Positions 3,892 to 20,966 of a stretch of 22,839 nt of DNA are shown here, one piece after another. The notes under the pieces are model-generated. The model was not told the origin of the DNA. It ran no database searches and worked only from the letters and a program-made list of their open reading frames with translations. The position numbers and the translations under genes were made by a program. Within the stretch, counting starts at the first letter, position 1. The number at the start of each line of letters is the position of its first letter. The stretch covers positions 180,927 to 203,765 of the forward strand of contig NW_014577437.1 in NCBI RefSeq assembly GCF_000485595.1, written 5' to 3'. Origin of the DNA: Priapulus caudatus. Taxonomy: Eukaryota; Priapulida; Priapulimorpha; Priapulimorphida; Priapulidae.

Positions 3892-3937
3892 CGCACACGC
3901 TGTGTTTTGTGCTGCAGCACAAAACACAGCGTGTGCG
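3892..3937. repeat. 46-bp perfect palindrome (right arm of foldback element)
   Basis: The same outer sequence as the 3401-3474 palindrome (CGCACACGCTGTGTTTTG) is mirrored perfectly around CTGCAG, centre between 3914 and 3915. It corresponds to the left-arm palindrome with the central 28 bp missing, a change expected from hairpin-tip deletion or from gain of an inner palindrome. Confidence 0.92.
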
Positions 3938-3945
3938 ACAGGCTT

Positions 3946-3962
3946 TACCCTAACCCTAACCC
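3946..3962. repeat. Short interstitial telomere-like tract (CCCTAA)
   Basis: TACCCTAACCCTAACCC lies immediately outside the 46-bp palindrome in the right arm. The equivalent place in the left arm reads CCCCCTATCCCTAAAG, so the tract is arm-specific. Two and a half units is too few to claim a telomeric origin. Confidence 0.6.
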
Positions 3963-4080
3963 GTACCTGAACACTAACTATAATCCAACCATATATATAC
4001 GAACCATATATTACAAAACACTATCTATAGTGGGTCCGGAACTCAAGTGGGGAAACAAATTTTGTCAGCGGATGTGCGTG

Positions 4081-4635: not shown

Positions 4636-4639
4636 CTTC

Positions 4640-6500
4640 TAGAAAGTTCTCCGCAGAATGCGACGACTAGTGTAACAGCCGTTGGTTAATAACTACGGAT
4701 GACGTCAGTACTAGGTTTTGTGTATTCTTGTGATGACTTTCCCGGTCAGTGCCCTTTGGAGTTTCTTTGGTTTTCCAGGGCCTGGTTTTTCAGAGATCTA
4801 GCAGAAGCAGTCAGCGTCTCAATTGCTGTGAGCTCGTGAGTCAGGGGCAGTGTATTTGAGACTGTGATTTTTACATTAGCAAAGTAATATCACGAACTTA
4901 TCTGCAGATTGTACTGCTATCGGTATGCTTAGCTTCGTGGTAATATATGCTAACAGTCAATCGCTTACAAAGAAAATTAACACCCTGCCCCCCTAGAAAA
5001 TTTATTGCCGTTCATGTACGTGGAAAGCTATTTGACTGAAACAGAGATCCCAATACCTCGGTTCCTCTCAAATGTTTGGTTTCGCGATTGAACTTTGCGA
5101 TCTGCCGCCCTCGCGGCACCGTTTGATTTTGCTGCTTTGGTCTCATCCTGTAACGCGTGTCAGAGTTGGTTTTAATGATCGGTAGCGTTTCTCTCATGTC
5201 TGGAATAGCCATCGATTCTCGTGATCGACTCTCGATTGCTGTCTTCCCCACGTTCCGTACTTTCAGATTACTGGCTAACACTGGCCGGTTGAGACGTGAG
5301 AGTAAGATGTATGCATTCGTGGCTGGATAGAGCTGGTTAGGACTAGACTAGGCCCACGTGTTGACGTTGCTCAGCATCGAATCGTGTGCTAGAAATTCTT
5401 TCGCGTTTCAGGGATTCTTGTTTACATCTCTGGTTGGTTGTCTCACCCCCCCCCCCCCCTGAGAACGGTTCACAGTTCACACACGTTGTCCGTACATATC
5501 CCCATGTAGTGCTGGTGTTGGAATGCTTTGATGAGCGCGATCGATCTGTCATCTTCTATATCTCCAGGAAAAGTTTAACGTTCTCTTTAATCTTCGCCCT
5601 CCGTGTCGACATAAACCGCGCTCCGAGAGCGGGAATTGTTGAAGATTTCACGGCGACTTAATTACTTAGCCGATATTATCCTAGAAGATACAATAATGTC
5701 TATACTCTAGTCTAGATTTCCTAATCTTGTTGGGTTACATTATTGTATCATATATTATCCATGCGTGTGCGGCCATTTTGGATTATATAGTATATACCCA
5801 CCGAAGGATGATGTTTGGCGTTTGTTATCCAAAAAATGTGGTAAATGTTCCGTGTATTTGCTGCGTAGTCGGTTGGTCGTTAGGCCTACTGCCAGCGAGG
5901 GCCTCTAGATCGGTTTTGATAGTCCAATAGCATTTTAACATGACACGGACCCTGAACTTGTTATGTATAAGCTGTAGTTAACTGTAAATAGTATATAGTG
6001 TTGTATAAATTATTGTGTTTTCACGGTGTACGTCTCAAAAGTAGTATAACTGTTATATTATTGATTTCGGCATATATTTTTCATATTCTGGTATGTAATT
6101 TTTTGAGTGTTCTTGTGTTTTTCTGAATATACATTTGTAATGTAGGTCTTTGACATTGCTTATAGAGTTACAACACTTTTCGTGTTCGCTGCCACTGTTA
6201 CTCGACAGTGAACAGAAACTTTGACTGTGTGTTGTCAGTCTATAAAAAAACGTTCGAGTTGCGTATGAATTTATAAAAAAAAAATTAAATATCGAAAACC
6301 CTACTGTAACTGCTGAAACTATTTACACTGAGGTATATATGCAGGGTAGACAGGTTTAAAAGCGGAGAATGTGACTGACCCCCCCCCCCTAAAAACATTT
6401 ATTTTCTTTAATGTTTACAGAATGTTTGATTATATAGTCTACCAGTATTTAATCGTGTATTTCGTAGCAGTGTCTAAGCCGCGGCGGGGAAGGGAGGGAA
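4640..6500. other. AT-rich stretch without recognisable gene
   Basis: Nothing coding is recognised on either strand. Small items: a full palindromic CRE (TGACGTCA) at 4700-4707; 14 consecutive C at 5446-5459 and another C run near 6380; an exact Pumilio-type TGTAAATA at 5983-5990; short A and T runs near 6245-6290. Confidence 0.6.
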
Positions 6501-6619: not shown

Positions 6620-7140
6620 ATTTCGCGTGCACACGTGCGGCATGAGGAAACAAATGGCAAGAGAGGGAGGGGAAACGAAACGGAGTGCGGGAGGGATAGA
6701 TGGAGAGACGGAGAAAGAGCGCATACGAGCGCGCGCGCGAAAGAGAAATGCACGGTGTGTTAAGCGAAGCTGTGTGGAGTGGATAGTCGATGGGGTACCG
6801 AGGGGTACGTAAATTGCGTAGGGAATGGGTAGGGTATGACTGAAAGAGGCAAGGTATGTTGCGAGGTATGTATAAAAGGAGAGATGGGGACCAGTGAGGT
6901 GCTGGGAAAGTACGTGGGGAGATGTTGGGGTGCGATTCGAGAATTGAGCAAGATTGAGGGACGAGTGTTTGTGAGAGCAACAGACACGCTGTATGAGGAG
7001 CCGATAGGATAGGCAAGGGAAGTCGATGGAATCGGTGAGAAGTTGCAAGCAGTAAGGAATACGAGTAGTGCGTGCGAAGAGCCGTGGTTGCTGGTGTGAG
7101 TGAGGGGAGAAGGGGTGAAGGAAGCCGCTAACGTATGCAC
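6620..7140 (+). other. Strongly G-skewed, purine-rich block with a TATAAAAG motif
   Basis: For about 520 bp the + strand is rich in G and A and poor in C, with many GAGG, GGGA and GTGAG strings. This skew removes stop codons from the minus strand, which is why three overlapping minus-strand open frames (up to 199 codons) appear together; none resembles a known protein. TATAAAAG at 6871-6878 matches a TATA box, but I see no gene starting downstream. Possible roles are an R-loop-prone or promoter-proximal region. Confidence 0.6.
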
Positions 7141-7204
7141 AAAGTCCCGCGAGCGAACTGTCGCCGTGCCCTCTATCGCAGGGGGACAGTCGCTCATAGC
7201 TATA

Positions 7205-7258
7205 CTATAAACAGGAGTAAATAATTACAGGTTTGTGATTATTTATTCCTGCTATAAA
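7205..7258. mobile_element. Micro-palindrome element copy 1 (40 bp) with 7-bp target duplication
   Basis: The element at 7212-7251 has ends CAGGAG...TTCCTG, a 17-bp stem and a 6-nt loop (7229-7234). Two stem positions are G/T, both pairable as G-U if the + strand is transcribed. CTATAAA flanks it exactly on both sides (7205-7211 and 7252-7258). The flanking direct repeat is the standard mark of transposon insertion. Confidence 0.8.
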
Positions 7259-7407
7259 GATACTAATTAGTACTAATTGTAATCCGCACTAATTAGTATT
7301 AATTGGTGCCTGGTTTATATTCCTGCACTAGCATCCCCGCCGGGCCGCGTCATTATTTATTTCATCTACTGTCATTTTTTGTGCTTTTGTGTTTTCGAGC
7401 CAGCGTC

Positions 7408-7483
7408 GGTGTGTGTGTGCGTGCGTGCGTGGTCGCGTGCGTCGCTGCTCCGCGCGTGGTGTCGGTATGTGTCCGTTGAGTGC

Positions 7484-7527
<44 letters not shown>

Positions 7528-7556
7528 TGTGATGTGTGTGTTTGTGTGTGTGCGCG
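7408..7556. repeat. (GT)n microsatellite with interruptions
   Basis: Longest pure part about 7486-7520 (GT)n, flanked by GTGC repeats and CpG-rich interruptions. The open frames over it are repeat artefacts. Confidence 0.9.
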
Positions 7557-7809
7557 CCGCACGCCGCGCGTGCTGTAGCGTGCGTCGCATGATTGACCAG
7601 GTGGAGGGAGCGCCGAAATTGTAGCGATGTTTGCAGACTAATGCTCGTTATGTGGTGTGCGCGCATGGGTGCCGTACGTCGTGCACTGGTGTATGTGTGG
7701 CGGCGATACGGCTGACAACTACGTGTGCACGTACATCACCACCACAGGTGTTGGCTTGTTTATAATGCACAGCTGATTTGAAATCGTTCGTATAATAATT
7801 AGGACTACA

Positions 7810-7815
7810 AATAAA
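7810..7815 (+). terminator. Candidate polyadenylation signal AATAAA with GT-rich downstream
   Basis: AATAAA is followed about 30 bp later by the T/G-rich GTTTTGACTGTTTCGTTTTG and then by a long G/T tract, the usual arrangement of a metazoan poly(A) site. No coding exon is identified nearby on the + strand, so any transcript ending here would come from far upstream or be noncoding. Confidence 0.25.
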
Positions 7816-7881
7816 GCCAGTAATTCAAACATAGATCGCGTTTTGACTGTTTCGTTTTGTCTAGCCGCCGCGCAAGCCATT

Positions 7882-7928
7882 GGTGGCGGGGTGGGTTTGT
7901 GTGGGTTGGGTGGGGTGGGGTTGGGAGG
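7882..7928 (+). other. G-rich tract with G-quadruplex pattern
   Basis: Contains GGGG, GGG, GGG, GGG, GGGG, GGGG and GGG runs separated by mostly 1-3 nt (one 5-nt spacer), for example GGGTTGGGTGGGGTGGGG. This satisfies the G3+N1-7 quadruplex pattern on the + strand several times over. It lies 70-110 bp after the AATAAA at 7810. Confidence 0.75.
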
Positions 7929-8060
7929 TTCAGCGGGTGATGACGTGATGATTTACACTAATTTTAGCATCGTTTATATTTATTTATTAGGCTTTTATTT
8001 GTCACCATATGTGGGGTCCAACTGCTCCTTGTTCACATTCATGGGCTACGGCCCTCTTTT

Positions 8061-8345
8061 ATCCGTCTGTCCGTCCGTCTGTCTGTCCGTCCGTTCGTTC
8101 GTGTTGCTCGACCGTCTGTCCGTCCGCTGTTTGTATAATACCGATCTATCTATCAATATAACTTATCTAATCAGAGCTATCTCTTCTGTCCTCTCTCTAT
8201 CTTTATAGATTATAATAATATCTTCTCTCGTCTCTCTCGAAGGTCTCTCTTCGATCAATCCGATCTCTTATCTCCTCTCGTGTCATCTTTCTCTCCATCA
8301 TCGCTTTTCTCTCCTCTAATCTATTTATCTATCTATCTATCTGTA
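8061..8345. repeat. Pyrimidine-rich microsatellites (CTGT/CCGT)n and (ATCT)n
   Basis: 8061-8125 is a CTGTCCGT/CCGTTCGT repeat. 8180-8300 is CTCT-rich. 8320-8340 is (ATCT)n and runs straight into the target duplication of micro-palindrome copy 2. Confidence 0.8.
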
Positions 8346-8392
8346 TCGGGAGTAGATAATAGGGTTCCCTATTATCTACTCCTGATCTGTAT
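8339..8392. mobile_element. Micro-palindrome element copy 2 (38 bp) with 8-bp flanking repeat
   Basis: The core at 8347-8384 has ends CGGGAG...CTCCTG with AGTAGATAATAGGG mirrored around a 2-nt TT loop. Including two flanking bases the stem is 20 bp with one G/T pair. ATCTGTAT flanks it on both sides (8339-8346, 8385-8392), a perfect 8-bp direct repeat. It is inserted at the edge of an ATCT microsatellite, so part of the flanking match could be helped by that repeat. Confidence 0.75.
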
Positions 8393-8399
8393 CCAAACA

Positions 8400-9050
8400 G
8401 AGAGTGGGTTTTGCATGCAAACATTTATTCCATATATATTTTATTTGATGCGTATATATAGCGATGCATTATCTCATTATATTACATAACATCTGTTCTA
8501 CGTTTTTATTGTCACAGTGGCGTTTGTTCACGAGTGGCCGGCTATCTCAATGTGTTATTCCTATATATATTGAATATTAATAATTTATATTAACAGTAAC
8601 TATATTAATTATACATTAATTAAATTTAAATATATTAAGCCCATATATCTCAAGATTCTATATGTTAAACCTATAACGCACACTATTGTTGTAATACAAC
8701 CAAAAGCTCTATCTGTTTTTTAAAAAGTATGCCAAAAAATACAAGATTAGGTTTAAGTAATTATTTTGTTATATATATATATACACGTATATATAGTTTT
8801 TGAAATTGATTCATCTAATTTTATATTATCCCCGTTCAGCCTGACAACGACAACTATACAGCAGTTGTCGAAACGGTTGCTTATCTTGGCGAATTTATCA
8901 AAAATAAATACATTTTACTCTTGTGTAATTTTAGCTATAATGTTGCGCATTATTTGTTTCGCCTAAATTGTGTAGGCATTTCTTTCTCCGGCCCACCTAC
9001 CACGAAAGCTGCAGCCCCGACAATCCATCCATCCCTATAGGCACGGGTGA
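8400..9050. other. AT-rich DNA without recognisable gene
   Basis: 8560-8640 is almost pure A/T with short imperfect palindromes. 8770-8796 is TA-rich. No coding signal that I recognise on either strand. Confidence 0.6.
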
Positions 9051-9055
9051 GACGC

Positions 9056-9302
9056 GCGTGCGTGCGTGCGTGCCGGTGTGCGTGCGTGCGTGCGTGCGTG
9101 CATGCATGCCTGTCTGCATGTGTGCCGGCGTGCGTGCGTGCCGGCGTGCGTGCGTGCGTGCCGACGTGCGTGCGTGCGTGCATGCCTGCTTGCGTGTGTG
9201 CCGGCGTGCGTGCGTGCATATGCCTGCCTGCGTGTGTGCAGGCGTGCGTGCGTGCATATTCCTGCCTGCGTGTGTGCCGGCGTGCGTGCGTGCGTGCGTG
9301 TA
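9056..9302. repeat. GTGC-based minisatellite with GCCGGC interruptions
   Basis: Tandem CGTG units periodically interrupted by CCGGCG, CATGCCTG or TGTGTGC, giving a loose higher-order unit of about 22-50 bp. All six frames stay open for long stretches because the unit lacks T-A-A/G and T-G-A strings; the Cys/Arg/Val or His/Thr peptides are artefacts. Confidence 0.9.
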
Positions 9303-9549
9303 TATCGTTATATCTGCGGGATGAATGTAGCAGCAGGAGGAGGAGGAGAAGTAAAGGTGACGTATGCCGACGTTTGCCGACGAAACCCAGCCGTCTCGCA
9401 GTATATATTGATCAAAAGTAACCGCAGCGGCTTGCGCGCGCGATATATATATATATGCCATATGTTATACATATGCATGATGCACGCACCGCAACGCGAG
9501 GAGCACCTTTCAGTAGAAAGCCTACATAGTAGAAGCACACAGTAGAAGC

Positions 9550-9573
9550 CGTATAGGTAAACTTACCTATACG
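9550..9573. repeat. Short perfect hairpin, 11-bp stem, 2-nt loop
   Basis: CGTATAGGTAA (9550-9560) and TTACCTATACG (9563-9573). Its ends are unlike the CARGAG family and I see no flanking duplication. Three copies of AGTAGAAGC or AGTAGAAAGC precede it (9512-9549). Confidence 0.75.
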
Positions 9574-9820
9574 TCGTATGAACGGTAAGCAATTATTCTA
9601 CTCGATAATGGTCGGGCGCGCGTTCGAGCGAGCGCGACGTTCGTTAGAATACAGCAACAGGTCTTGATCGGGTTCGCGTTGCAGGCGATGAGTGAAGGGG
9701 GAAATCTGACCCCGCGTAGACGCAGGGGCCTACGTCAGCGCCACCGCTCTCTTTTTATGTCATGTATCATTAGTAACACTAATACCGCAGATTAGCTGGG
9801 TTTGCCGCGTATCTGTCTGG

Positions 9821-10040
9821 GTGCGTGCGCGTGCGCGTGTGTGCGTGCGTGTGTGCGCGCGCGCGTGCGTGTGTGTGTGCGCGCGCGTGCGTGTGTGTGC
9901 GCGCGTGCGTGTGTGGGTGGGGGGGCGTACGCGTGTGGGTGTGGGTGGGGGGCGTACGTGCGTGCGTGCGCGCGCGTGTGTGTGTGTGCGCGCGTGTGTG
10001 TGGTGGGCGTGCGTGCTTGCGTGCTTGCGTGCGTGCGTGC
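9821..10040. repeat. GT/GC alternating array
   Basis: Alternating purine-pyrimidine sequence with several pure (GC)n and (GT)n blocks, the class of DNA that adopts Z-form under supercoiling. It is followed at 10099-10190 by a diverged GT block with a 46-bp internal duplication (TATGTGTCCGTG at 10099 and 10145). Confidence 0.9.
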
Positions 10041-10047
10041 CAGTATG

Positions 10048-10101
10048 AGTGTATCAAGAGTCCATAATAGAACAATTTCTATTATGTACTCTTGATTGTA
10101 T
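10048..10101. mobile_element. Micro-palindrome element copy 3 (40 bp) with near-perfect 7-bp flanking repeat
   Basis: The core at 10055-10094 has ends CAAGAG...CTCTTG. CATAATAGAA pairs with TTCTATTATG around a 4-nt loop (10073-10076), and one C/T mismatch lies in the stem. The flanks AGTGTAT (10048-10054) and ATTGTAT (10095-10101) match at 6 of 7 positions. Confidence 0.72.
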
Positions 10102-10199
10102 GTGTCCGTGTGCGTGCGTGTGAGCATGTGCGTATGAGGCAGCGTATGTGTCCGTGTGCGTGCGTGTGAGCGTGCACGCGCGCGTGCTTGATAAGCTAT

Positions 10200-10251
10200 A
10201 TAGCGTCAAGAGCGTAAAATGAATACCTTCTTTATACGCTCTTGATAGCGT
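10200..10251. mobile_element. Micro-palindrome element copy 4 (38 bp) with 7-bp target duplication
   Basis: The core at 10207-10244 has ends CAAGAG...CTCTTG. The stem CAAGAGCGTA/TACGCTCTTG continues as AAA/TTT after a one-base bulge. ATAGCGT flanks it exactly (10200-10206 and 10245-10251). This is the most diverged interior of the family, but its target duplication is perfect. Confidence 0.75.
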
Positions 10252-10264
10252 GTATTCCTACCCG

Positions 10265-10286
10265 CTGCACCGTAGATGGGGTGCAG
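10265..10286. repeat. Short hairpin CTGCACC/GGTGCAG
   Basis: Seven-base-pair stem with an 8-nt loop just after micro-palindrome copy 4. It may be chance. Confidence 0.4.
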
Positions 10287-10639
10287 TTAACCGCAGCCTG
10301 TGTATATGAAGCACTGCAGACATGATATGCTGTCATGGCTTGTCGATTACATTATACTGCATATCAACAAAAGTTTGACCTCCGGATTTGAGTGCAATTA
10401 GAGTCATAGAGGAGTCAGCATAGTATAGAGTCATGACTGTCTTCTGTCAGGTAATACACGTGGGCTCGCCACTTGTCGGCGTCTCATTTAATAATTAATT
10501 TAGTAATTTGTCAATAGATTCGTCTAAAAAAGGACGTTCGCCGAAATCGTTGTCGACATTAAATTGGCCCCCAATGTTACCAGTTGAACTTCAGTCTATT
10601 ACCGTCCGACTAATTGTGTCCCATCATTACGTATATATT

Positions 10640-10800
10640 ACCAAGAGCGTATTAATATATATATATACTAGTGAGATACCTGGCGTTGCCCGGGGAAATC
10701 AGTGGCGTTACTCAGTTGGTGACCGCTTGGTTGAAAGGAAAATTCCCCAAAAAATCTAACTATCTATCCATCCATCCATGCATCCATCCATCCATTCCAT
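10640..10800. repeat. TA tract, GGCGTTGCCCGGG motif and CATC microsatellite
   Basis: 10652-10668 is (TA)n, followed by a GATACCTGGCGTTGCCCGGG string. I associate that motif with ends of invertebrate interspersed repeats, from memory and not checked. 10700-10715 reads CAGTGGCGTTACTCAG, close to hAT-type termini. 10761-10800 is (CCAT)n, which continues beyond the inserted element at 10801 as the CATCC satellite. Confidence 0.5.
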
Positions 10801-11055
10801 CAGGGACGTGGCTACGGGGGGGCCGCCCCCTACAAATTTTCTGTGCCTCCCCCCAGGTGCCCCCCCACTAAAAATTCATGCTTGATAAAAAAAAATTCAA
10901 TTAAAAACAATGCCGTTAGAACAGTATAATTAATACAAAGAAAGAGGGTTCGAACCACATCTCAGTAAATTTTATATTGTGCTCCCCCCCCCCTCTTACG
11001 AAAATGTAAGGCCCCTCAGTGCCCACCCGCTGAAAAAATCCTAGCTACGCCACTG
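10801..11055. mobile_element. Non-autonomous hAT-like DNA transposon remnant (255 bp)
   Basis: The left end CAGGGACGTGGCTACG and the right end, read inverted, CAGTGGCGTAGCTAGG share a CAG-initiated terminal motif that is widespread in non-autonomous hAT-like elements of animals. C-rich subterminal blocks lie in both halves. The flanking octamers CATTCCAT (10793-10800) and CATCCCAT (11056-11063) match at 7 of 8, as expected of a hAT 8-bp duplication, although the element sits inside a CATC-type satellite so part of that match is not independent. No transposase frame. A GGTTCGAACC string inside is not part of a tRNA. Confidence 0.7.
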
Positions 11056-11322
11056 CATCCCATTCCATGTCATCCCATCCCATCCCATCGCAACGCATCC
11101 CATCCCATCCCATCGCAACGCATCCCATTCCATGTCATCCCATCCCATCCCATATCCCATCCCATGCCAATCCCATGACACGCCATGACATGCCATGCCA
11201 TCGCACCGCATCCCATCGCACCGCATTCCATCCCATCCCATCCCATGCCATGCCATGCCATCCCATGCCATCCCATCCCATGCCATGCCATGCCATCCCA
11301 TGCCATCCCATCCCATCCCAAA
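11056..11322. repeat. CATCC/CATGC pentanucleotide satellite
   Basis: About 53 pentamer units of CATCC with CATGC, CATTC and CATCG variants, and a larger internal duplication (ATCGCAACGCATCCC occurs twice in 11085-11130). Since 5 is not a multiple of 3 and no unit junction makes a stop, several frames stay open and give Trp/Asp/Gly/Met-rich artefacts. Confidence 0.92.
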
Positions 11323-11409
11323 CAGTAAAAAATAATAAGAAATCAAAAGATAAAAGACATAAGAATAAATATACAAAATAAACATTAAAAAATAAAAAAT
11401 AAAAATAAA

Positions 11410-11492
11410 TCTATATATATAAAGTTGTTCAGCCGAATTAGTTCGCACTCGCATAACTAGAGAACTCCGCAGCCTAGAGGAAAACTAAGCCT
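11410..11492 (+). repeat. Dispersed repeat end, copy A (after TA tract)
   Basis: TATATAAAGTTGTTCAGC, then GAATTAG, then CGCATAACTAGAGAACTCCG and GGAAAACTAA. The same blocks occur in the same order and orientation at 22610-22688, again directly after a TA tract. The similarity stops after about 75 bp. It behaves like one terminus of an interspersed element, superfamily unknown. Confidence 0.75.
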
Positions 11493-11499
11493 TGTGAGT

Positions 11500-11725
11500 A
11501 TGGTTTTATCTTAGCATTGTCTTGCGTATCTTATACCGTGTGCATATGTGTTTTAAACTCTATTAAAATAGTATTCTATGTTTAAACTCTATAGCCTATG
11601 TAACATCACGTACGTGGTAGGTCCGTTTCATAGTAATCTTTTAGTAAAATATTGACTTGATACGAAGACAATAATACAATGATCCTGTTACTAACATAAA
11701 ATTTTCTCTCCCGGAATATTCATTT
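11500..11725. other. AT-rich single-copy stretch, nothing recognised
   Basis: A small repeat TTTAAACTCTAT occurs twice (about 11551 and 11580). No coding or RNA gene signal. Confidence 0.5.
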
Positions 11726-12125
11726 CTATATAAAACACTGTGAACACCTTCTAATCCATTGTTTTTCTCTTTAAATTAAGGTTAATATAATATACGGAAC
11801 CCGCTTAATACGATTATTTTTCTTTGGCCCGTCAGTTTCGTACTAACGGGGTGCGACTGTAGTAATGAATAGTAGTAATTGAATAAAGACTTTAGGCTTT
11901 GCAGTAATTGTATCTATTTGTGAAGCAATTTAACGCCTACTAAAGTTGCTTAATTATACATATAAAATCTATATAAAAACCTTGTACACACCTTGTAATC
12001 CATTAATTTATTTCTTTTGTTAATTCGGGGCTAATATATGTGGTTAATACGAAACCCGCTTAATACAATTATTTTTCTCCTTGGCCTGGCAATTTTCTAC
12101 TAACGGGGTTTGACTGCAGTAATGA
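11725..12125 (-). mobile_element. Diverged tandem duplication of a pogo/Tigger-like transposon end
   Basis: Two copies, period about 255 bp in the lower half, share TATAAAANNCNNTGTNNACACC, CTTAATACRATTATTTTTCT and ACTAACGGGGT. Read on the minus strand, each begins CAGTCRMACCCCGTTAGTA and continues with TATTAAGCGGGTT. CAGT-initiated termini with internal CCCCGTTAGTACGAA-like sub-repeats are typical of pogo/Tigger-type MITEs (recalled, not searched). In the upper copy the terminus abuts a TA dinucleotide (11860-11861), the pogo target. Similarity extends a few bases past the presumed end, so a plain segmental duplication is possible. Confidence 0.5.
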
Positions 12126-12213
12126 TTCTTGAAAAATGTAGGCAAATGCTTCGATATAATGGTTTATATCCTCGCACGTAGTGTAGGCGGAACGTATTGC
12201 TTTCGCGCGCCGT

Positions 12214-12215
12214 TT

Positions 12216-12258
<43 letters not shown>

Positions 12259-12266
12259 CGCCGTGT

Positions 12267-12309
<43 letters not shown>

Positions 12310-12384
12310 GTGTGTGTGTGTGCGCGCGCGCGTGGGCGTGTGTGTGTGGCGTGGTGCGTGTGTGTGTGTGTGTCTGTCTGTCTG
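12214..12384. repeat. (GT)n/(GC)n microsatellite
   Basis: Long GT runs interrupted by three pure (GC)n or CGCGCG blocks. Z-DNA-prone. The open frames on both strands are artefacts. Confidence 0.92.
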
Positions 12385-12513
12385 CAACCGTTAGAGGTAG
12401 GCAACTTCAAACTTGTCCAGAGGTGGACCTTAAGCGGGCGTGAAACCCCTAATTGATTTTGAGTGCCTTTCATCGCAAGGTCAAAGGGCTCAGCAGGTTT
12501 ACTTTGATGAATG

Positions 12514-12573
<60 letters not shown>

Positions 12574-12574
12574 T
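12514..12574. repeat. (GATA)n microsatellite, about 15 units
   Basis: Uninterrupted GATA repeat. Length polymorphism is expected. Confidence 0.95.
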
Positions 12575-12579
12575 GCGCT

Positions 12580-13385
12580 GAGTGCGAGCGTGCAGGTGGG
12601 GGAAGACTTGATTCCACATCCAGCGCGTGTGCCCTGGCGAATTCACTGCAAGGTTACGTGACAGACTACTGTATCCCTTAGCCTGTGGTTGCGTGTTTGT
12701 AAGTCTACAGCCAGCGCACCTAGTGGAAGTGAACATAATCGTGCATGTTTTCCAGGAAGATTTTCCATTAGATTTTCTAAATATGTTTTTTTTTAACATT
12801 TAACCCAATAAATTACAAAAAGCAAAGTGTTAGAATCGAACCTGATGCGTAGGAATGAAGCACGAACAATTTCAGCCGGATTCGTGCACGCGCCTAGAGG
12901 TTATGCAGGAACAAACTACTCAAATTATTATATAGATAGAAGATATATATATAGAGAGAGATATTACGTTGCGTATCGTAGGACTGGCGGGAAATACCCA
13001 CTGGTAAAGTACTGCTTGCATTGTGACGTGACAGTGTAACGTCATCGGGAAGCCTCTATATTGACATCTCTTGCGCGCAGCCAATGATTATAGTGCCTGT
13101 ATCCGTGTGCGTTGCAGCCTCGATCCCTGTACCTACTCGGTTCATCCCTCCCCACACCCTGTCCAGCACTTCGTTGCGCCCCCTGAGAGAAAGACTTTCG
13201 ATGCATTTCTCCGCGTTGCATCCCCCACGGTGTGCATCCCCCCTTTTTGCGAGCACTCCAGCATGCATCCCCATGTATGCGTCCTTCTTCATCAACCCGC
13301 CTCTCTGCCCCTCCCCCTCCCCCCCAATCCTAGCGTTCTCTACAACGTGTCCGTCTCCCTGTGTGCGCTCTCTTCTTGCATCTCA
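12580..13385. other. No gene recognised; C-rich block at 13140-13330
   Basis: 12640-13060 is single-copy with an AATAAA at 12807 and a TA-rich block at 12930-12965. 13140-13330 is C-rich with CATCCCC strings. A long plus-strand open frame across 13071-13802 lacks an ATG start and consists largely of repeat-encoded Val/Ala and Cys/Arg runs, so I do not accept it. Confidence 0.5.
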
Positions 13386-13398
13386 CATGCCAACATCC

Positions 13399-13496
13399 TT
13401 GTTGTTGTTGCTGCTGTTGCTGCAGCTGTCGCTGCTGCTGCTGCTGCTGTAAGTGTTGTTGTTGTTGTTGTTGATGTCGTTGTTGTTGTTGCGATT
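13399..13496. repeat. Mixed CTG/GTT trinucleotide repeat (polyQ-like on the minus strand)
   Basis: GTT and GCT triplets with interruptions. The minus strand reads a mixture of CAA and CAG codons with occasional His, Leu and Arg in an ATG-initiated 60-codon frame (13512 to 13330). Mixed codons argue against very recent slippage. No flanking conserved domain is visible, so I annotate it as a repeat and discuss the coding possibility separately. Confidence 0.85.
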
Positions 13497-13707
13497 GTAA
13501 CACCTGTTGCATGCGCCGGTTGGAAACAACAACTCGGAGAGCGTAACCACTCCGCTTTCCGAACGCGTGCGTGCATGTGTGCGTGCGTGCGTGCGTGTAT
13601 CGCTTTCACGTGCGCGTGCTCACCTGCGCGCGTCGTATCGCATGCTCGCGCGCGTGACGTCGCCATCGTCACACGCCGAGTCGCCGAGTCGCGCACGCGG
13701 GCGGCAG

Positions 13708-13715
13708 TGACGTCA
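13708..13715. promoter_or_regulatory. Candidate CRE (TGACGTCA) in a CpG-rich block
   Basis: A full palindromic CREB/ATF site, with two further GTGACGTCG half-matches at about 13656 and 13729, inside CpG-rich DNA (13560-13780) about 1.5 kb before the 304-codon ORF. It could be a distal promoter element. Other full CREs lie at 4700 and 20651. Confidence 0.3.
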
Positions 13716-13978
13716 TCGCGCATCTGCAGTGACGTCGCGGCGCGTTGGCAGACCTACGCGAGCAATCGCGGTAACGCGGCGATGTCAGTGAATCATCAGT
13801 GAATCGTCAGTGACACGCTGTGGCAGCGCATGCGGGGCTGGTGGATGACCGATCGACGGTGTGAGGTGAGAAGGTAGGACGACGGGCGACGATCGAGCGA
13901 AGGCTCCGCCATCGAAACAATTTTCCGCCACGAGAATTTGATTCACCACAGCGTCTAGAGAGAGCGCACGCGTAGATC

Positions 13979-14445
13979 GGTGTCGCACAGGTGCGTGATA
14001 ATTTTCCCGCCGTGTCCGCGAATATGAGATAATTGTCTGCATAAGTTCGTGACACCTTTGTTACTTTGCAAGCTAATGTTACACAAGTGTCGCATGGGTG
14101 CGTAACAATTTTACCGTCGTGTCGGCGAATACAAGATAGGTGACGCATTGCGCGTGGCAATTTTACAACTTGTCAACGATTATAAATGTCGCATAAGTTC
14201 TTGACACCTTTGCTACTGTGTCAGCTAATGTAACACAAGTGACGCAAATGTGCGTGACAATTTTACGGTCGTGTCAGCGAATATGAGCTAGGTGACGCAT
14301 CTACATGTGGCAACTTTACAACTTATCAACCATCATTAGTGTCGCATAGGTGCGTGACACCTTTGCCTCTGTGTCAACGAATATAACACACGTGTTGCAA
14401 AGGTGCATGGCACCTTTGCCGCCGTGTCAACGATTAATAGAAAGG
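13979..14445. repeat. About 50-bp satellite organised in a 153-bp higher-order unit
   Basis: Nine related monomers of 47-54 bp of the form GTCGCATAGGTGCGTGACA, then TTTTACCGTCGTGTC, then AGCGAATAT. Monomers three apart match better than neighbours: GCATAAGTTC at 14039 and 14191 and the related GCATAGGTGC at 14344 are spaced 152-153 bp. This is a trimeric higher-order repeat. Confidence 0.85.
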
Positions 14446-14516
14446 TAAGTGTCACATTTTTAGGTGACACTATCGCAGCGAGTGATGAGTGATCACGCAT
14501 ACGAGTGATTCTCGAC

Positions 14517-14645
14517 GAGTGACCCCAGCGCGACACGAGTGACCCCAGCGCGACACAAGTGACCCCAACGCGACATGAGTTACCCCAGCTCGACCCGAGT
14601 GACCCCTGTGCGGCACGAGTGACCCCAGCTCGACACGAGTAACGT
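14517..14645. repeat. 20-bp minisatellite, six copies
   Basis: Unit GAGTGACCCCAGCGCGACAC starting at 14517 and 14537, with four further diverged copies at 20-bp spacing. It lies between the 50-bp satellite and the 72-bp array. Confidence 0.9.
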
Positions 14646-14744
14646 TTGCTCTGTCGTTGTCGCGTCGCACGACCGCCGCGCACGGACAAAATTACGCACA
14701 CTAATTCTGCCGCATCCTGTACGAGCGGTAGAAACTCTTGGAGG

Positions 14745-15260
14745 AGAATTCCGTAGCGGTAGGCCAGCGTCTCCGGGTGGTCTACCCGTGAACAGCTTTT
14801 TTGAAGCGCCCTCTCGCGACTGTAACGGAAGGACAGCACCTGCAGAAGGTGCAAACTTACCTGTGAACATCTACCGCAACGCCCGCTCGCGACCGTAACG
14901 AGAAGCCAGCATCTACAGAGGTGCGGACTTACCTGTGAACATCTACCGCAACGCCCGCTCGCGACCGTAACGGGAAGCCAGCATCTACGGAGGTGCGGAC
15001 TTACCTGTGAACATCTACCGCAACGCCCTCTCGCGACCGTAACGGGAAGCTTGCATCTACGGAGGTGCGGACTTACCTGTGAACATCTACCGCAACGTCC
15101 TCTCGCGACCGTAACGGGAAGCCAGCATCTACGGAGGTGCGGATTTACCTGTGAACATCTACCGCAACGCCCTCTCGTGACTGTAACGGAAAGCTTGCAT
15201 CTACGGAGGTGCGGACTTACCTGAGAACATCTACCGCAACGGCCCTCGTGACTGCTGTCG
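14745..15260. repeat. 72-bp tandem array, about 7 copies, ending just before an ORF
   Basis: The anchor CTGTGAACATCTACCGCAAC occurs at 14861 and then every 72 bp (14933, 15005, 15077, 15149), with a variant at 15221; diverged units extend upstream to about 14745. As 72 is a multiple of 3, the minus strand keeps one frame open with a 24-residue repeat rich in Cys and Arg (GRCGRCSQVSPHLRRC...). On the minus strand every unit carries a consensus 5' splice site: MAG|GTAAGT in five of six units and GTAAAT in the fifth. The last unit ends about 10-15 bp before the ATG of the 304-codon ORF, so the array is in its 5'UTR or promoter. Confidence 0.92.
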
Positions 15261-15271
15261 GCGTTGACACG

Positions 15272-16186
15272 ATGGATGCAGACTGCGAGCGACTCTTCCT
15301 GAGCTACGAGCTTCCAGTAGACTCCCCCATCAAGCCGTACTCGGTCGACCACTGCCGCAGCTGGCAGTGGCAGCTGTCGCTATGCCGCGACTACCGGCAG
15401 GAGGCGCTGCGCAGCACCATCAGCTGTCGGCTCGAGCCGGGGACAGCCGTCGGCACGTCTGGGGGCGAGGAAGCCTGGCTGAGAGCGAGGAAGAGGAGGA
15501 GAGACGACGACGGAGAGGACGGAGGAGGAGGTTGGGGTGGAGGGAGAGGGGAAGGAGGAGGAGGGGTAAGAATAGGAGGTGGAGGAAGTGGAGGAGGGGG
15601 AGGTGAAGGTGGAGGAGGAGGAGGAGGAAGAGGAGGAGGAGGAGGAGAAAAAGGCGTCACTCTCGGTCAGTACATCGAAGAAGAGCTACGTCGGCATTGC
15701 CGACCGACGACGACGACAACCGCTTTCGCCGCCGCCGACGCGTCCGCCTGGGTTCCCATCCCCGCGCGTGACTACGAGCGCAGCTGGAGCGACGACGCAG
15801 TGGCGCCCCCGTGCGGACACCTTGCTCACGGCGCGCCGAAGTCGCCGATGGGCAGCAGTTCGGCGTCGGACTCTGGCGTCGACCTGGTCGGCAGCGCGCG
15901 CGACGACGACGACGCATGGCAGCACACGCCGACGTCGGCCTTCTCTCCGTACCGCGATCGCCGACAGAGCGACGTCGGATTGCGCTGGCCGACGACGGAC
16001 GGCGGCGTGGCGACGTCGCACGGTAAGGAGCAGCGCACGAGGGGGCGCGGCGATCGGTCGGCGCAGCTCCGGAAGCGACTCATATCGTCGAGGAAGGAGT
16101 TCCTGGTCTATCTGGGATACGAGGTCATCGGTCAGTATCGAGACTGGGACGTACTGGACATGCTAGCCGAACCAGCCCGCCTCTAA
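15272..16186 (+). CDS. Unrecognised 304-aa intronless ORF with Gly-rich, disordered centre
   Basis: Best supported new gene here. ATG at 15272 has A at -3 and G at +4; TAA at 16184. The upstream in-frame extension enters the 72-bp array, so this ATG is preferred. Residues 1-56 (MDADCERLFLSYELPVDS...) look ordered, with Trp, Tyr, Cys and a QWQLSLCRDYRQEALR helix-like segment. Then come a basic RKRRR followed by acidic residues (about 74-82), a Gly-rich run (about 84-128), a predicted helix LGQYIEEELRRHC, a Ser/Asp-rich disordered region with SDSGVDL, and a C-terminal ordered block of about 40 residues (RKRLISSRKEFLVYLGYEVIGQYRDWDVLDML). RKRRR could be a nuclear signal. Base composition is GC- and CpG-rich, unlike the AT-rich flanks. 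A GGGTAAGA donor-like site at 15566 lies in the Gly run, so an intron cannot be excluded. Function unknown; I do not recognise the family. Confidence 0.6.
   Translation: MDADCERLFLSYELPVDSPIKPYSVDHCRSWQWQLSLCRDYRQEALRSTISCRLEPGTAVGTSGGEEAWLRARKRRRDDDGEDGGGGWGGGRGEGGGGVRIGGGGSGGGGGEGGGGGGGRGGGGGEKGVTLGQYIEEELRRHCRPTTTTTAFAAADASAWVPIPARDYERSWSDDAVAPPCGHLAHGAPKSPMGSSSASDSGVDLVGSARDDDDAWQHTPTSAFSPYRDRRQSDVGLRWPTTDGGVATSHGKEQRTRGRGDRSAQLRKRLISSRKEFLVYLGYEVIGQYRDWDVLDMLAEPARL
15521..15653. repeat. GGA-type purine tract inside the 304-aa ORF
   Basis: About 130 bp almost free of pyrimidines on the + strand, made of GGA, GGT and GGG units, coding for glycine with scattered Glu, Arg, Val and Ser. It can form triplex or quadruplex structures and is prone to in-frame length change by slippage. 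Confidence 0.9.
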
Positions 16187-16740
16187 CCCACAGCCACCCA
16201 CCCCCTTCACCACCCCCTCCCGCCGCTGCCCCGCGCGCACGCCGGGACACCCACATGCGACTATACACGCCTCGACTACTTGTAGTTGGAGCGGAGGAAA
16301 TCCCTTATAAGGAAATCCCCGGAGAGAAAGGCACGCAGTGAATCCATCTTGAACGGCCGCAAGCGCCAATTTTTTGCGGTTTTTCTCTCGAGCGGCCGCT
16401 GTATGCAGGTTTGAGTAAACGTTCCAAGGGAACCCATTGTCGTTGCGGTCGCGTTGTGGCAGGAACGACGTTTCGAGAAAGGCATACGTGTTCAAGAAGC
16501 GCGTGACTGTCGTCGGTGTATCGGGTACGGCTGTGTGTCTGACTCACCCAGCTACGGAGTCACCTGACTCGCAAAGGGCCTGCAAGACGCACGTACACGG
16601 CTTTAGTGTGGCGATGGTTACTCAGAAGGAAGTCGTCCGGTATATTTTTTCTAACCACTCGGAATTTACCTCGTACTTCTATCCGTCGAGTATAATAACC
16701 TTTTAATAATATTTAATAAACGTTCTCTCGAGTCATCTAT
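16187..16740 (+). other. Probable 3'UTR of the 304-aa ORF
   Basis: From the stop codon to the first + strand AATAAA (16715-16720), about 530 nt. It starts C-rich (CACCCACCCCC). It contains a duplicated GGAAATCCC-type string (16297-16321) and two CGAGCGGCCGC or GAACGGCCGC strings (16353 and 16389). No other coding signal. Confidence 0.5.
16715..16720 (+). terminator. Polyadenylation signal AATAAA
   Basis: The first canonical hexamer after the 304-aa ORF, in ATATTTAATAAACG. Cleavage would be expected at about 16735-16745. A second AATAAA lies at 16972. Confidence 0.5.
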
Positions 16741-16796
16741 AGCGGGAAGATTGGAACAGGCGGTTAATATCCAGCCTGTAAGTGTTCTGCTAGCAT

Positions 16797-16874
16797 CTAT
16801 GACAAATACGACATACGCATATAGGCTCTCCTATTACACTATTTGTCATAGGAAGATTCTTCTTATGACAAATA
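16797..16874. repeat. Three alternating inverted copies of TATGACAAATA
   Basis: Copies at 16798-16808 (+), 16840-16850 (inverted) and 16864-16874 (+). The middle copy can pair either with the left copy (12-bp stem, loop about 31 nt) or with the right copy (11-bp stem, loop 13 nt), so two hairpins are mutually exclusive. No CARGAG ends and no flanking duplication. Confidence 0.8.
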
Positions 16875-16879
16875 TTGTT

Positions 16880-18180
16880 GTATATGTTGTGCGCATCATA
16901 AGAGTTTAGGAGCGCTATTATGAACGCAAGCAGTGAATTTCAGCTCTAAAGCGGAACGAAGTTGACTCGCCAATAAATAGTACACTTACGGCTTCACACC
17001 TAGTATAGCTCCTTATCGATCCGAGTATATATGCAGTAGCATCGGTTACACGCAAGCATCGACTACTACAGGTGATATAGTAAATTGCGCATCTTGCCTA
17101 TTGTATTCGATTCGTTTCCGTTGCGCAATGCAGCCACGCGCTAACACCGGTCACGAACGATAAATTTGTGATATGATCACGTACAGTCACCGTACTACCT
17201 GCTGTGTGCTGCTTGATCATTTGAGGGGTGTGTGTGTGTGGTGGGGGTGTTTCTAGCGTTTGAGTAGATGAAAATTCGTTCGCGTTAGCAAGCCATTTTA
17301 GGCCCGCGTAGTAATGGAATGATATCTATAGCAATTCTCGCCTTCATTCAAATGGTATTTTATTTTAAGAGGCCAGATATTCAAGCGCTAGAACCCACAT
17401 GCGAGACATTCTAGGCGTCTGAACGCTGAACGAATGGCTAATATGGTTGCGTCTTAACACATGCGTTTGTCTTTCACTGTCCGAGTACCGTGCATCGTTC
17501 CATATATCGTTTCAAATTGTTTGTCAATATTAACCTCTGATATATATATACACATTCCTCGCTAGGTCCAGTAAGCGTGGCAGCTCAGTGGTGGCGGCCT
17601 TTTACGTAAGGATCCTTATTCATAAGACCCGTAGATGTAGCCGTCCTCACAATCATGGTCGGTGAAAATCACGGTAGTATTTGCAGTAGGTGATGTCGGG
17701 TACTCTCGCGGTCCTATACCTGTTCTCTCCGTCCACGACTCCCCCCATGCATGTCTGTAGCATGTATCATTGTTTCTTATCCCTCATTCACGTTTAATTT
17801 TGATTATTCTTTCTAATATTCTCTCCTTTCGTTATCTCCCTAATCTCCCTCCGCCTCCCCCTTTCTTCCTCCTCTTTCTCTCTCCCTCTCACACTCCCCC
17901 TCCTCTCTCCCGGTTTTTTGAAAACAACATAAATACTTTTAACTATCGTAAGTCCAAAAAGGAATACTTTTTGCCAATCAGTTCGTGCGCAAAAGTTATG
18001 ACATGTGAACTTGCGATGTCTTAACTATTTACTTTATTGTTTCTATATCATGGAAGTGCATTATCATGCCTAGATAATAATTAAATCATTATCGTTTCAC
18101 TTCTAGTCTTCAAGGGCTCTCAACAGCGGAATGCCTAATAAATAGTTTAAACCATATCAACCAAAGCCCTAACTAAATAG
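16880..18180. other. Single-copy, mostly AT-rich DNA; no gene recognised
   Basis: Holds an AATAAA at 16972, a short GT run at 17227-17242, a short TA run at 17542 and a strong polypyrimidine stretch at 17820-17912 (CT/CCCTCC). No recognisable protein or RNA gene. The polypyrimidine tract ends CTCCCGG with no clear acceptor-exon continuation. Confidence 0.55.
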
Positions 18181-18188
18181 CTTATTAT

Positions 18189-18225
18189 CAAGAGCTAATA
18201 ATTCTATAGGTATTATTAGCTCTTG
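18189..18225. mobile_element. Micro-palindrome element copy 5 (37 bp)
   Basis: CAAGAGCTAATAAT (18189-18202) pairs perfectly with ATTATTAGCTCTTG (18212-18225) around a 9-nt loop. The flanks TTATTAT and TTATATA are AT-rich and only partly alike, so a target duplication is not demonstrable. A longer direct repeat (ACAACCAAAGC or TCAACCAAAGC plus ACTAAA) lies on both sides, at about 18158 and 18234. Confidence 0.65.
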
Positions 18226-18845
18226 TTATATAATACAACCAAAGCATTACTAAAGTTTTCCGAGGTGTTTTCGTGCGGTAACCATGTTGATAACGAATGC
18301 GCATGTGACGTTACGCCAACACGCACGGGCGCCACACTGATATACGTGCACAAAATATAACTGAATTGAAAAATGTCTTAATTCTATAATCACATATTTC
18401 TACTTTATCGTGGCTCTCTATGTACGAACATACAGCTACTACTACTAGCTACGTAGTTCTACTAGTTTATCGCTAACTTTAATAGCTTAATAGCATCTAG
18501 TGATAAGCTCGTCAAATGCGCGGGGGGAGGGGGTAGTGGCAGTGGATCTACGTCCCGATCTTCATTACACTCCACGCATGACTAAGTTCTACTTACGCAG
18601 TTACGCACTCTCAAATACAGGCAATAATCATTTACATGTAGCTTTAGACGTGCCACTTACACCCAATTATAACGCTTAACACGTTCCATTCTAACATATC
18701 AGTTGCGTGTCACTTTCATCTTACATTATGGAATGTACAATAACACGAATTTAAATAAGCAACGTATAGAAAATTTATACTGTTATACTGTGTGTGTTTT
18801 TATACAGTTTTGATTATATATGTGAATTGTTACTATCTATCCTCT
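18226..18845. other. Single-copy AT-rich DNA; no gene recognised
   Basis: Contains CTACTACTACTAG-like short repeats near 18436-18465 and a G-rich GGGGGGAGGGGG at about 18522. No coding signal. Confidence 0.55.
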
Positions 18846-18848
18846 GAC

Positions 18849-18862
18849 AACATATCTATCTA

Positions 18863-18906
<44 letters not shown>

Positions 18907-19115
18907 CACCTGGTTAGATGCGGTACATACGTACAAATACGCGCGTGCGCGAATACCGCCGCAGACACACACACACACACACACACACACACCCGCATAC
19001 ACTCTCTTACATGCACGCACACGCACACACACACGACATACACATACACGCACGTATATAGAAAATGATACATGACTGAGCACGCATATGCACGCACGCG
19101 CACACACAGACACGT
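18849..19115. repeat. (TA)n and (CA)n microsatellites
   Basis: 18868-18898 is (TA)n preceded by (ATCT)n. 18963-18992 is (CA)n. 19008-19110 is CACGCA/CACACG-rich. Minus-strand Cys/Val-rich frames over these are artefacts. Confidence 0.9.
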
Positions 19116-19306
19116 CAATTACCATTGTGACTCAAACTATGACACCGCATTTACTCCCCACGCTTACCTCTAACCAACTAATTATATTATTTCCAGACAC
19201 TGATGCTTATTATGATGTGCAATATTCGTATTGTTTACTAATTTGTTCTGAACAATATATATAAGGACGTTTTGTTACGCGCCATTTGCGATTATTTTTT
19301 AGGACA

Positions 19307-19877
19307 ATTTAGCAAGCATTTCTTTCGACGCTTTAGATTATATTTCTTACGACGCTTTAGACTATGTTTCTTATGACGCTTTAGATTATGTTTCCTACGA
19401 CGTTTTAGAGTTACATTTTTACGACGATTGAGTGACCATTTCTCACGACGCTTTAGTTTAGACTATATTTCTTACGACGCGTTAGAGTTAATTTCCTACG
19501 ACGATTTAGTTTAGACTATATTTCTTACGACGCTTTAGATTATGTTTCCTACGACGTTTTAGAGTTAACTTTTTACGACGATTGAGTGACCATTTCTCAC
19601 GACGTTTTAGTTTAGACTATATTTCTTACGACGCTTTAGACTATATTTCTTACGACGCTTTACTAGACTATATTTCTTACGACGCTTTAGACTATATTTC
19701 TCACGACGCTTTAGACTATATTTCTTACGACGCTTTAGACTATGTTTCTTACGACGCTTTAGACTATATTTCTCACGACGCTTTAGACTATATTTCTCTC
19801 GACGCTTTAGACTATATTTCTTACGACGCTTTAGACTATATTTCTCACAACGCTGACTATTTCTCACAACGCTTTAT
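19307..19877. repeat. 24-bp satellite encoding a possible octapeptide repeat
   Basis: Unit GACGCTTTAGACTATATTTC plus TTAC, 24 bp. The regular part, 19620-19850, has about 10 clean copies. The upstream part (19310-19620) is diverged and contains a 154-bp duplication (CCTACGACGTTTTAGAGTTA at 19394 and 19548). In one + frame the unit reads DALDYISY and on the minus strand KRREKYSL. The + frame stays open for 235 codons (19582-20289) but begins with TTG, and the 140 unique codons after the array match nothing I know. I therefore annotate a repeat and not a gene. Confidence 0.92.
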
Positions 19878-20370
19878 TCATTACGATATGCGACGCGTCG
19901 AGTCGCCACGTACGCTGGACCGACGTAGGAATAGTTCGTTGTTTGTTTATCTGGAGGGTCCGATGGTCATTGTTATCAAGAGTGCCTTCGTACATTTGGA
20001 ACAAGGTCGTGCGTCTAACAGGTTGCGGAATGTCGGGTACTATATCACTCAGCGTACGTTATTATTATTATCGTTGTTCATGTACTATTTGGACATGTCT
20101 GTAATGTATATATACACACATGTACTGACCGGTCTTGGGTCAAGGTTACATTCATGTTGTCGTCAGTTGACCATATTTATCGGTATTGGTGTTTCGTCTA
20201 AAGTGGAGATTGGCAATGTGGCTGCTATGCCATTTTTATTGAATAAAATCTCGGGTGTGATACAAATTAATGCCATACAACAGGTGTAGAGATGCTACAT
20301 TTATATTACTTGCCTGCTATCTGCGTGAAATCTACCAATTAAATTTTGGTACACCCGATGAAGGCATATA

Positions 20371-20512
20371 GAACACGTGACGCGGGAGTTTGGAGCACGT
20401 GATGTGAAAACCCAGAACACGTGACGCGGGAGTTAGGAGCACGTGATGTGAAAACTCGGAACATGTGACGAGAGAGTTCGGAGCACGTGACGAAGGAGTT
20501 CAGCGACACATG
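20371..20512. promoter_or_regulatory. 22-bp array carrying regularly spaced E-boxes
   Basis: CACGTG at 20374, 20396, 20418, 20440 and 20484, with CATGTG at 20462: six sites at exactly 22-bp intervals, each followed by A (CACGTGA). Alternate units match best (GAACACGTGACGCGGGAGTT and GAGCACGTGATGTGAAAAC), so the real repeat is a 44-bp dimer. Degenerate units such as GAACACGACACGCG continue to about 20570. CACGTG is the core bound by bHLH-ZIP factors of the MYC/MAX, USF and MITF/TFEB families. Whether it acts as an enhancer is unknown. Confidence 0.6.
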
Positions 20513-20519
20513 CTAATTG

Positions 20520-20910
20520 ATTCTAAACACCGGTTCTTGACACGGTCAACATCGAGAACACGACACGCGTGAGATGAGAACACACAAGCCAACAACCAGT
20601 TAGACGAGTTAAATATTTAAAAAAACACCCGTTATCCGAGATTAACCAGGTGACGTCATAGTCCAGAACAGAAGACGAATGAACACCAATCAGAACGTGA
20701 CGTAATACGAACATTTAATTAGTTTGCCAAAAATTCTTCTTAAAATTGCATGGCACATTACACATATACACGTAAATATATACGTCAGGAACAAAGTAAG
20801 TAATAAATAAAGGTACCCTTGTACGCGAAATCCTCCGGGAACGAACCAAGACACTATAGACTAGACACTGCTCATATTTACTTATAACAAATATAATATA
20901 TAACGGAATA
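20520..20910. other. No gene recognised; CRE site at 20651
   Basis: Contains a full TGACGTCA at 20651-20658 and a further GTGACGTAA at 20697. Otherwise AT-rich single-copy sequence. Confidence 0.5.
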
Positions 20911-20912
20911 GG

Positions 20913-20966
20913 ATACTATCAGGAGTGAATAATAGAGAATAATCTATTATTCACTCCTGATACTAT
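20913..20966. mobile_element. Micro-palindrome element copy 6 (40 bp) with 7-bp target duplication
   Basis: Core 20920-20959 with ends CAGGAG...CTCCTG. CAGGAGTGAATAATAGA pairs perfectly with its complement around a 6-nt loop (20937-20942); with three outer bases the stem is 20 bp without mismatch. ATACTAT flanks it exactly (20913-20919 and 20960-20966). This is the cleanest copy of the family. Confidence 0.85.

Follow-up and report, generated by a model that had tools for sequence, protein, structure and literature searches.

What are the short hairpins scattered through one stretch of the Priapulus caudatus genome, and how did they come to be there? The question arises in 22,839 nucleotides of contig NW_014577437.1 (positions 180,927 to 203,765 of the forward strand, assembly GCF_000485595.1), a stretch referred to below as the window, in which a preliminary description had reported six palindromes of 37–40 bp with CARGAG...CTCYTG ends, five of them flanked by short direct repeats, and had taken them for insertions. 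The best explanation, and in our judgement a highly probable one, is that these hairpins are end-only non-autonomous DNA transposons, i.e. miniature inverted-repeat transposable elements (MITEs) of very small size, or micro-MITEs, mobilised in trans.

All six hairpins were found where they had been reported, with lengths of 37–40 bp, and so were the direct repeats beside five of them. Exact 7-bp duplications (all repeats are given on the + strand) enclose copy 1 (7212–7251, 40 bp, CAGGAG...TTCCTG; CTATAAA at 7205–7211 and 7252–7258), copy 4 (10207–10244, 38 bp, CAAGAG...CTCTTG; ATAGCGT at 10200–10206 and 10245–10251) and copy 6 (20920–20959, 40 bp, CAGGAG...CTCCTG; ATACTAT at 20913–20919 and 20960–20966). 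Copy 2 (8347–8384, 38 bp, CGGGAG...CTCCTG) lies within an exact 8-bp duplication, ATCTGTAT, at 8339–8346 and 8385–8392, and copy 3 (10055–10094, 40 bp, CAAGAG...CTCTTG) within a 6/7 match, AGTGTAT at 10048–10054 and ATTGTAT at 10095–10101, while copy 5 (18189–18225, 37 bp, CAAGAG...CTCTTG) has no clear duplication (4/7). One end base departs from the consensus in each of copies 1 (TTCCTG) and 2 (CGGGAG). When the window was shuffled 200 times with dinucleotide composition preserved, one such palindrome appeared in six shuffles and none in the other 194, and an exact 7- or 8-bp repeat beside a palindrome was never obtained, versus four among the six palindromes of the window itself. We also scanned the window for any palindrome of 20–80 bp with 10-bp arms, at most one mismatch and an abutting repeat of 6–9 bp, and every match apart from AT- and GTGC-type simple repeats belonged to this family. 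Together, the scan and the shuffles rule out a chance origin of the window hairpins.

The family extends throughout the genome (385,217,808 bases in 2952 contigs), which was searched using the reversed pattern as control. The pattern CARGAG-N(24–32)-CTCYTG, corresponding to elements of 36–44 bp, has 3189 matches versus 192 for the control, so that the genome-wide palindrome excess proposed as a check in the preliminary description is indeed present. By eye, about 42 of the 50 matches listed in this class are good palindromes, while the rest may be chance hits or decayed copies. Excesses were also obtained for a shorter class of 18–35 bp (1820 matches versus 593) and for a longer class of 45–74 bp (3760 versus 702), the latter count taking in composites and nested elements. 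Per length step, the excess amounts to about 333 for 36–44 bp, versus about 68 and 102 for the shorter and longer classes, respectively, so that 36–44 bp is the preferred size. Strict copies are denser in the window (4 in 22.8 kb) than in the genome on average (about 1 per 121 kb, or 3189 in 385.2 Mb).

Insertion is indicated by the flanks, which were examined at 31 of the 50 listed places (12 of 12 in C1, 16 of 21 in C2 and 3 of 17 in C3); the five C2 places passed over were not palindromic in appearance, and one of the 31 was dropped as too weakly palindromic. With ten extra copies from the same stretches and the six window copies, this yielded 46 elements, in each of which no more than one end base was mismatched and 10 or more of the 13 outer positions were paired. 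Exact abutting duplications of 7 bp were found in 28 of these elements and of 8 bp in six, versus an exact 7- or 8-bp match in only 34 of 2070 control pairs in which left and right flanks came from different elements. Five of the twelve copies without an exact duplication are near misses, such that 39 of the 46 reach 6/7 or 7/8. Because loci L002 and L003 represent one insertion within a duplicated segment, separate insertion events with an exact duplication amount to 33 of 45. The 7-bp targets (n = 28) are themselves biased, with A in 22, T in 28 and A in 21 at the first three positions, no preference at the fourth, T in 13 or C in 10 at the fifth, and A in 24 and T in 20 at the last two. The 8-bp targets (n = 6) have a consensus of about ATRTAYAT; both consensus sequences are palindromic, the 7-bp one being ATANTAT-like. 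Accordingly, the reading of these hairpins as insertions is supported by the 7- and 8-bp duplications and by the abundance of palindromes, and the two excesses on whose absence it was to be abandoned, of palindromes genome-wide and, in the sampled elements, of abutting repeats, were both observed.

Empty sites were sought by joining the two flanks of an element and looking for the joined sequence in the genome DNA examined. For the element at L017:8094, whose duplication is ATGTCCAT, an insert-free paralogous copy carries ATGTCCA once, and for the one at L017:6872, with duplication ATAGTAT, the insert-free paralogous copy likewise has a single ATAGTAT. A third empty paralogous site, corresponding to L021:3101, is less clean, the spot being AT-rich and diverged. 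A nested insertion agrees with this: at C1:746444–746529 a 35-bp element with ATAATAT on either side is nested within another family member, and removing it together with one ATAATAT restores a host that is itself a 44-bp family member. The first two empty sites lie in a segment that occurs twice in L017, about 3.3 kb apart (3400–5090 and 6720–8385); two further elements of this duplication are present in both segment copies, which are set apart by many small indels and may be two alleles that the assembly placed in tandem. Separately, a 38-bp element with an extra end forms a 72-bp composite at L022:8992–9063, with its own duplication ATATTAT.

How little sequence such an insertion needs is illustrated by the smallest palindromes. 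CAGGAGTCTATCAATATTGATAGACTCCTG, a perfect palindrome of 30 bp, occurs at several places among the matches listed. Three of four identical copies examined with 10-bp flanks have an exact 7-bp duplication (ATATTAT, ATGTTAT and ATACAAA), as does a copy with one substitution (ATTTAAT), and these duplications, found at four of five sites examined, are all different. The matches listed include still shorter palindromes, of 24 and 28 bp; the sole 28-bp copy examined with flanks (L023:422) has no duplication. The perfect 40-bp palindrome CAGGAGTAGATAATAGGGAATTCCCTATTATCTACTCCTG has 42 exact occurrences in the genome and none for its reversed control. Such identical copies suggest recent activity.

The 40-mer also links the micro-elements to much longer ones. 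A 398-bp element at L018:9422 has 68-bp inverted ends of which the first 20 bp are those of CAGGAGTAGATAATAGGGAATTCCCTATTATCTACTCCTG, and at its right end seven extra bases precede the 8-bp duplication ATACGTAT; the same 20-bp end is identical to the right 20 bp of copy 2 in the window. Searching for CARGAGTNGATAATAGGGAA with any base but T after it yielded 223 + 201 matches, with none in the control. Among the matches listed, at least 16 inverted pairs of this 20-bp end lie 398–820 bp apart, and at least four lie 41–90 bp apart. Three of the 16 pairs (L045–L047) were identified as fold-back elements of 775–820 bp consisting almost entirely of inverted repeat, all with exact 7-bp duplications (ATTTCAT, ATATAAT and ATATAAG); long inverted arms making up nearly the whole element, as is typical of Foldback elements, were seen in these longer relatives only. 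Because its 20-bp ends are common to fold-back elements of 398–820 bp, one subfamily can be identified as an end-only MITE, a fold-back element reduced to its outermost 20 bp at either side. More generally, the family has the attributes expected of MITEs: its members are short and non-coding, with terminal inverted repeats, a high copy number, and target duplications that fall into a defined size class (28 of the 46 elements with 7 bp and six with 8 bp).

The arms of these palindromes point to a way in which they may be kept. As the terminal hexamers served to find the copies, the figures given by position concern those beyond them. Among the 92 arms, A10 (92), T11 (89) and A13 (91) are nearly invariant and position 12 is A in 78; positions 8, 9, 15 and 16 vary freely among copies, and the 46 copies contain 29 distinct 14-nt left arms. 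Across positions 7–14, arms agree at 95% within a copy, a figure raised by the choice of copies with at least 10 of 13 outer pairs, versus 66% between copies. We compared the long relatives over their outer 220 columns, excluding the right arm of L018, which aligned badly, and obtained mixed results. In L046 the two arms do not differ at all, and they diverge by 7–15% from both arms of L045 and L047 and from the left arm of L018; in L047 the two arms agree at 96% and resemble those of L045 at 87–95%. That arms vary from one copy to the next while remaining matched in each suggests that one arm is copied from the other, which is the most economical reading for the micro-elements and for L046.

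In the mechanism we propose, two copies of a transposon end of 15–20 bp (CARGAGYNNATAAN...) would stand head to head, with at most a short spacer between them, this end length being set without counting the 24-bp palindromes, which were listed without flanks. A transposase supplied in trans would insert such palindromes, cutting AT-rich palindromic sites (ATANTAT-like) with a stagger of 7, sometimes 8, bp, and the arms would be kept complementary not by selection but by copying, through hairpin or cruciform repair or template switching. A more far-reaching version, which we put forward tentatively and which may well prove wrong, is that these are self-templating hairpin transposons with only 15–20 nt of unique information: one arm would be copied from the other on mobilisation or repair, any change in one thereby passing to both and continually generating new palindromic subfamilies, and the transposase would need only the outer 15 bp, making the 30-bp family a complete substrate for a eukaryotic cut-and-paste transposase with a cutting geometry other than that of canonical P elements.

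Which transposase this could be is best approached from the targets, and these make a Galileo-like member of the P superfamily about as likely as not, the alternatives being a hAT-type enzyme or something undescribed. A duplication of 7–8 bp at a palindromic target, as found here, is a trait of that superfamily, and the genome contains at least 64 matches to the P transposase core. Several of the P transposase genes (L025–L044) occur in copies 90–96% alike, one P-type reading frame includes three P-type domains, and the named relatives of one P transposase of this genome include fish, sea cucumber and spider proteins. Galileo itself is a fold-back-like element of the P superfamily in Drosophila, for which the passages available give duplications of 7, sometimes 8, bp at GTATTAC/GTANTAC (PMC4168063, PMC2775673). 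As far as these passages go, the elements described here resemble it in duplication length and in a palindromic, AT-rich target (GTANTAC there, ATANTAT here), as well as in long inverted arms and many non-autonomous size classes (PMC4168063, PMC2775673). They differ in the space required, since in Galileo some 70 bp separate the end from the closest THAP binding site (PMC3688188), so that its copies must be longer, whereas 30–40 bp suffice here, and in that no transposase is tied to the ends in this genome.

The main alternative is that these are hAT-type micro-MITEs, with CARGAG ends and hAT-like T and A target letters, and with 7-bp duplications as an unusual variant. Ends of hAT elements often read CAGNG, their cutting proceeds without a long stagger inside the element, and their duplications measure 8 bp. 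Given this mode of cutting, a 30-bp element would be geometrically possible, and T is found at target position 2 in 28 of 28 7-bp and 6 of 6 8-bp duplications, with A next to last in 24 of 28 and 6 of 6. The hAT-like hint of the preliminary description was thus upheld for both letters and failed on length, as 28 of the 34 exact duplications are 7 bp and not 8; moreover, the same two letters occur in the GTANTAC target reported for Galileo in the passages available. Because of the predominance of 7 bp, Galileo-type P elements provide a better fit, and we consider a hAT origin rather unlikely.

Explanations without transposition fare worse. Repair of staggered breaks can duplicate flanks, and palindromes made on site by snap-back or templated insertion at such breaks would be consistent with the common loop-free centres (no unpaired base in 12 of 46 elements, one in nine). 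This origin is nevertheless very improbable, as 89–92 of the 92 arms have A10, T11 and A13 in common beyond the search hexamers, one 40-mer is found at 42 places, one 30-mer at several sites with differing duplications, and one subfamily has the 20-bp ends of 398–820 bp elements; identical copies at unrelated sites, in particular, disfavour repair-made palindromes. Least credible of all are conserved functional hairpins (RNA or protein-binding sites) with arms covarying by selection, for which the strong arm covariation would be expected but not the abutting target duplications, empty paralogous sites and nesting, and of which conserved RNA is ruled out in the window, where an Rfam search gave no match. 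Hairpins may still take on a function after insertion.

Returning to trans-mobilised micro-MITEs and a P-type transposase, several observations weigh against this interpretation or parts of it. Exact duplications are absent from 12 of the 46 elements, and the fourth identical copy of the 30-mer has none either (4/7). No longer relative with exact ends came to light for the subfamily of 30 bp: a 16-nt pattern gave 84 matches, among them 10 inverted pairs whose members overlap to make a 28-bp palindrome, but none that face inward at a distance of 100 bp to 9 kb; a longer form with A after 15 nt or a changed end would escape this pattern. The arms of L045, one of the three long relatives, are just 89% alike, and its right arm is 94–95% like L047, contrary to what arm copying would produce. 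The exact end CARGAGYNNAT was found in none of 20 P-transposase loci, within about 1.5 kb on each side (one locus meets the contig end sooner). Finally, the P element, in the part of the source available, is cut 17 nt inside its 31-bp ends, leaving 3' extensions of 17 nt, and binding sites in its interior are used as well (PMC7776569). Being shorter than 2 × 17 nt, the 30-bp element has no room for this canonical stagger together with internal sites, a rule of the D. melanogaster P element that may not hold for all P relatives; its size therefore implies that the transposase either cuts differently or is not P.

Other attempts to connect the ends with a transposase gave similar results. A looser scan for inverted ends with duplications around the 20 P loci yielded weak generic pairs at two of them (L029 and L040), and a stricter one yielded none, versus three in 60 control pieces. 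Comparison of P gene copies to locate their borders gave no usable end, and the similarity of the fold-back arms to the P loci was at chance level, no higher. An autonomous partner was also sought in the window and L001–L024 (25 sequences) as pairs of CARGAG-type ends separated by 56 bp or more and flanked by exact 7- or 8-bp duplications, which returned just four candidates, of 61, 67, 72 and 155 bp. As for the longer element with the same ends and a transposase that the preliminary description proposed to look for, the fold-backs, of which that description was unaware, have the same ends, with no transposase tied to them. One subfamily pattern searched against viral contigs and prokaryote genome contigs, collections from which records of this genome may be missing, had no match.

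Tiny or palindromic transposon derivatives are known from other systems. Mariner elements target TA, and the internal eliminated sequences of Paramecium, which have TA ends, derive from transposons, measure as little as ~26 bp, and are removed during development with no 7–8 bp target duplication. The latter are similarly tiny and transposon-derived, and differ from the elements described here in their TA ends and developmental removal. Made1, a human mariner MITE, is likewise a near-perfect palindrome composed of almost nothing but two terminal repeats, although at 80 bp (two 37-bp ends and 6 bp, in the passage available; PMC1784062) it is longer than the elements found here, mostly of 36–44 bp with one 30-bp family. 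P-MITEs of Anopheles gambiae and zebrafish Pdre elements are, in the parts of the sources available, also non-autonomous, with transposon ends and target duplications, and the Pdre2 end CATACCTGTCAAC has CA...TG termini as here; in contrast, the names of the MITEs imply lengths of at least 205 bp, and the duplications are of 8 bp (PMC1562414, PMC10983969). Hence, the kind of element, MITE or fold-back, is already known. Among the titles and abstract openings listed in the open-licence literature, we found no family of 30–45 bp palindromic transposons with 7-bp duplications, and the listings and passages available did not include the tiny size, near-perfect palindromes, number and within-element covariation described here.

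Further repeats were observed in the window and the sampled loci. A second short type of palindrome, starting with CATAGAAATA, is found at L004:1104–1158 and L017:6969–7043, with abutting 8-bp repeats GTTCCCAC and GTTAGCAC, and may represent a further micro-MITE family that prefers other target sites. Palindromes with TAGC ends and abutting 8-bp repeats are present at L005:7896–7959 (64 bp) and L023:9527–9633 (107 bp). Within the window, a long inverted repeat at about 3398–3950, with GCCTGYCGCACACGCTGTGTTTTGTGCTGC-like ends by eye, is probably a separate fold-back element, and an array of TTTCTTACGACGCTTTAGACTATA-like tandem repeats at about 19270–19880 lies partly in a 259-codon open frame. 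Positions 82–303 resemble, by eye, the final exon of a gene for a receptor-type tyrosine phosphatase, a short piece without a Pfam match. The protein of one window gene had no match in the searches.

With thousands of palindromes of 30–45 bp, Priapulus caudatus carries strikingly small mobile elements for a complex organism. The 30-bp palindrome, which occurs at several sites with different duplications, has a bearing on the minimal needs of a eukaryotic transposase; Made1, the shortest palindromic MITE in the literature consulted (80 bp; PMC1784062), is more than twice as long. Thousands of these insertions would escape repeat finders run with customary length limits. The site preference of the family can be compared with those of the P and hAT superfamilies, and the covariation of arms over many subfamilies makes the upkeep of perfect palindromes directly testable.

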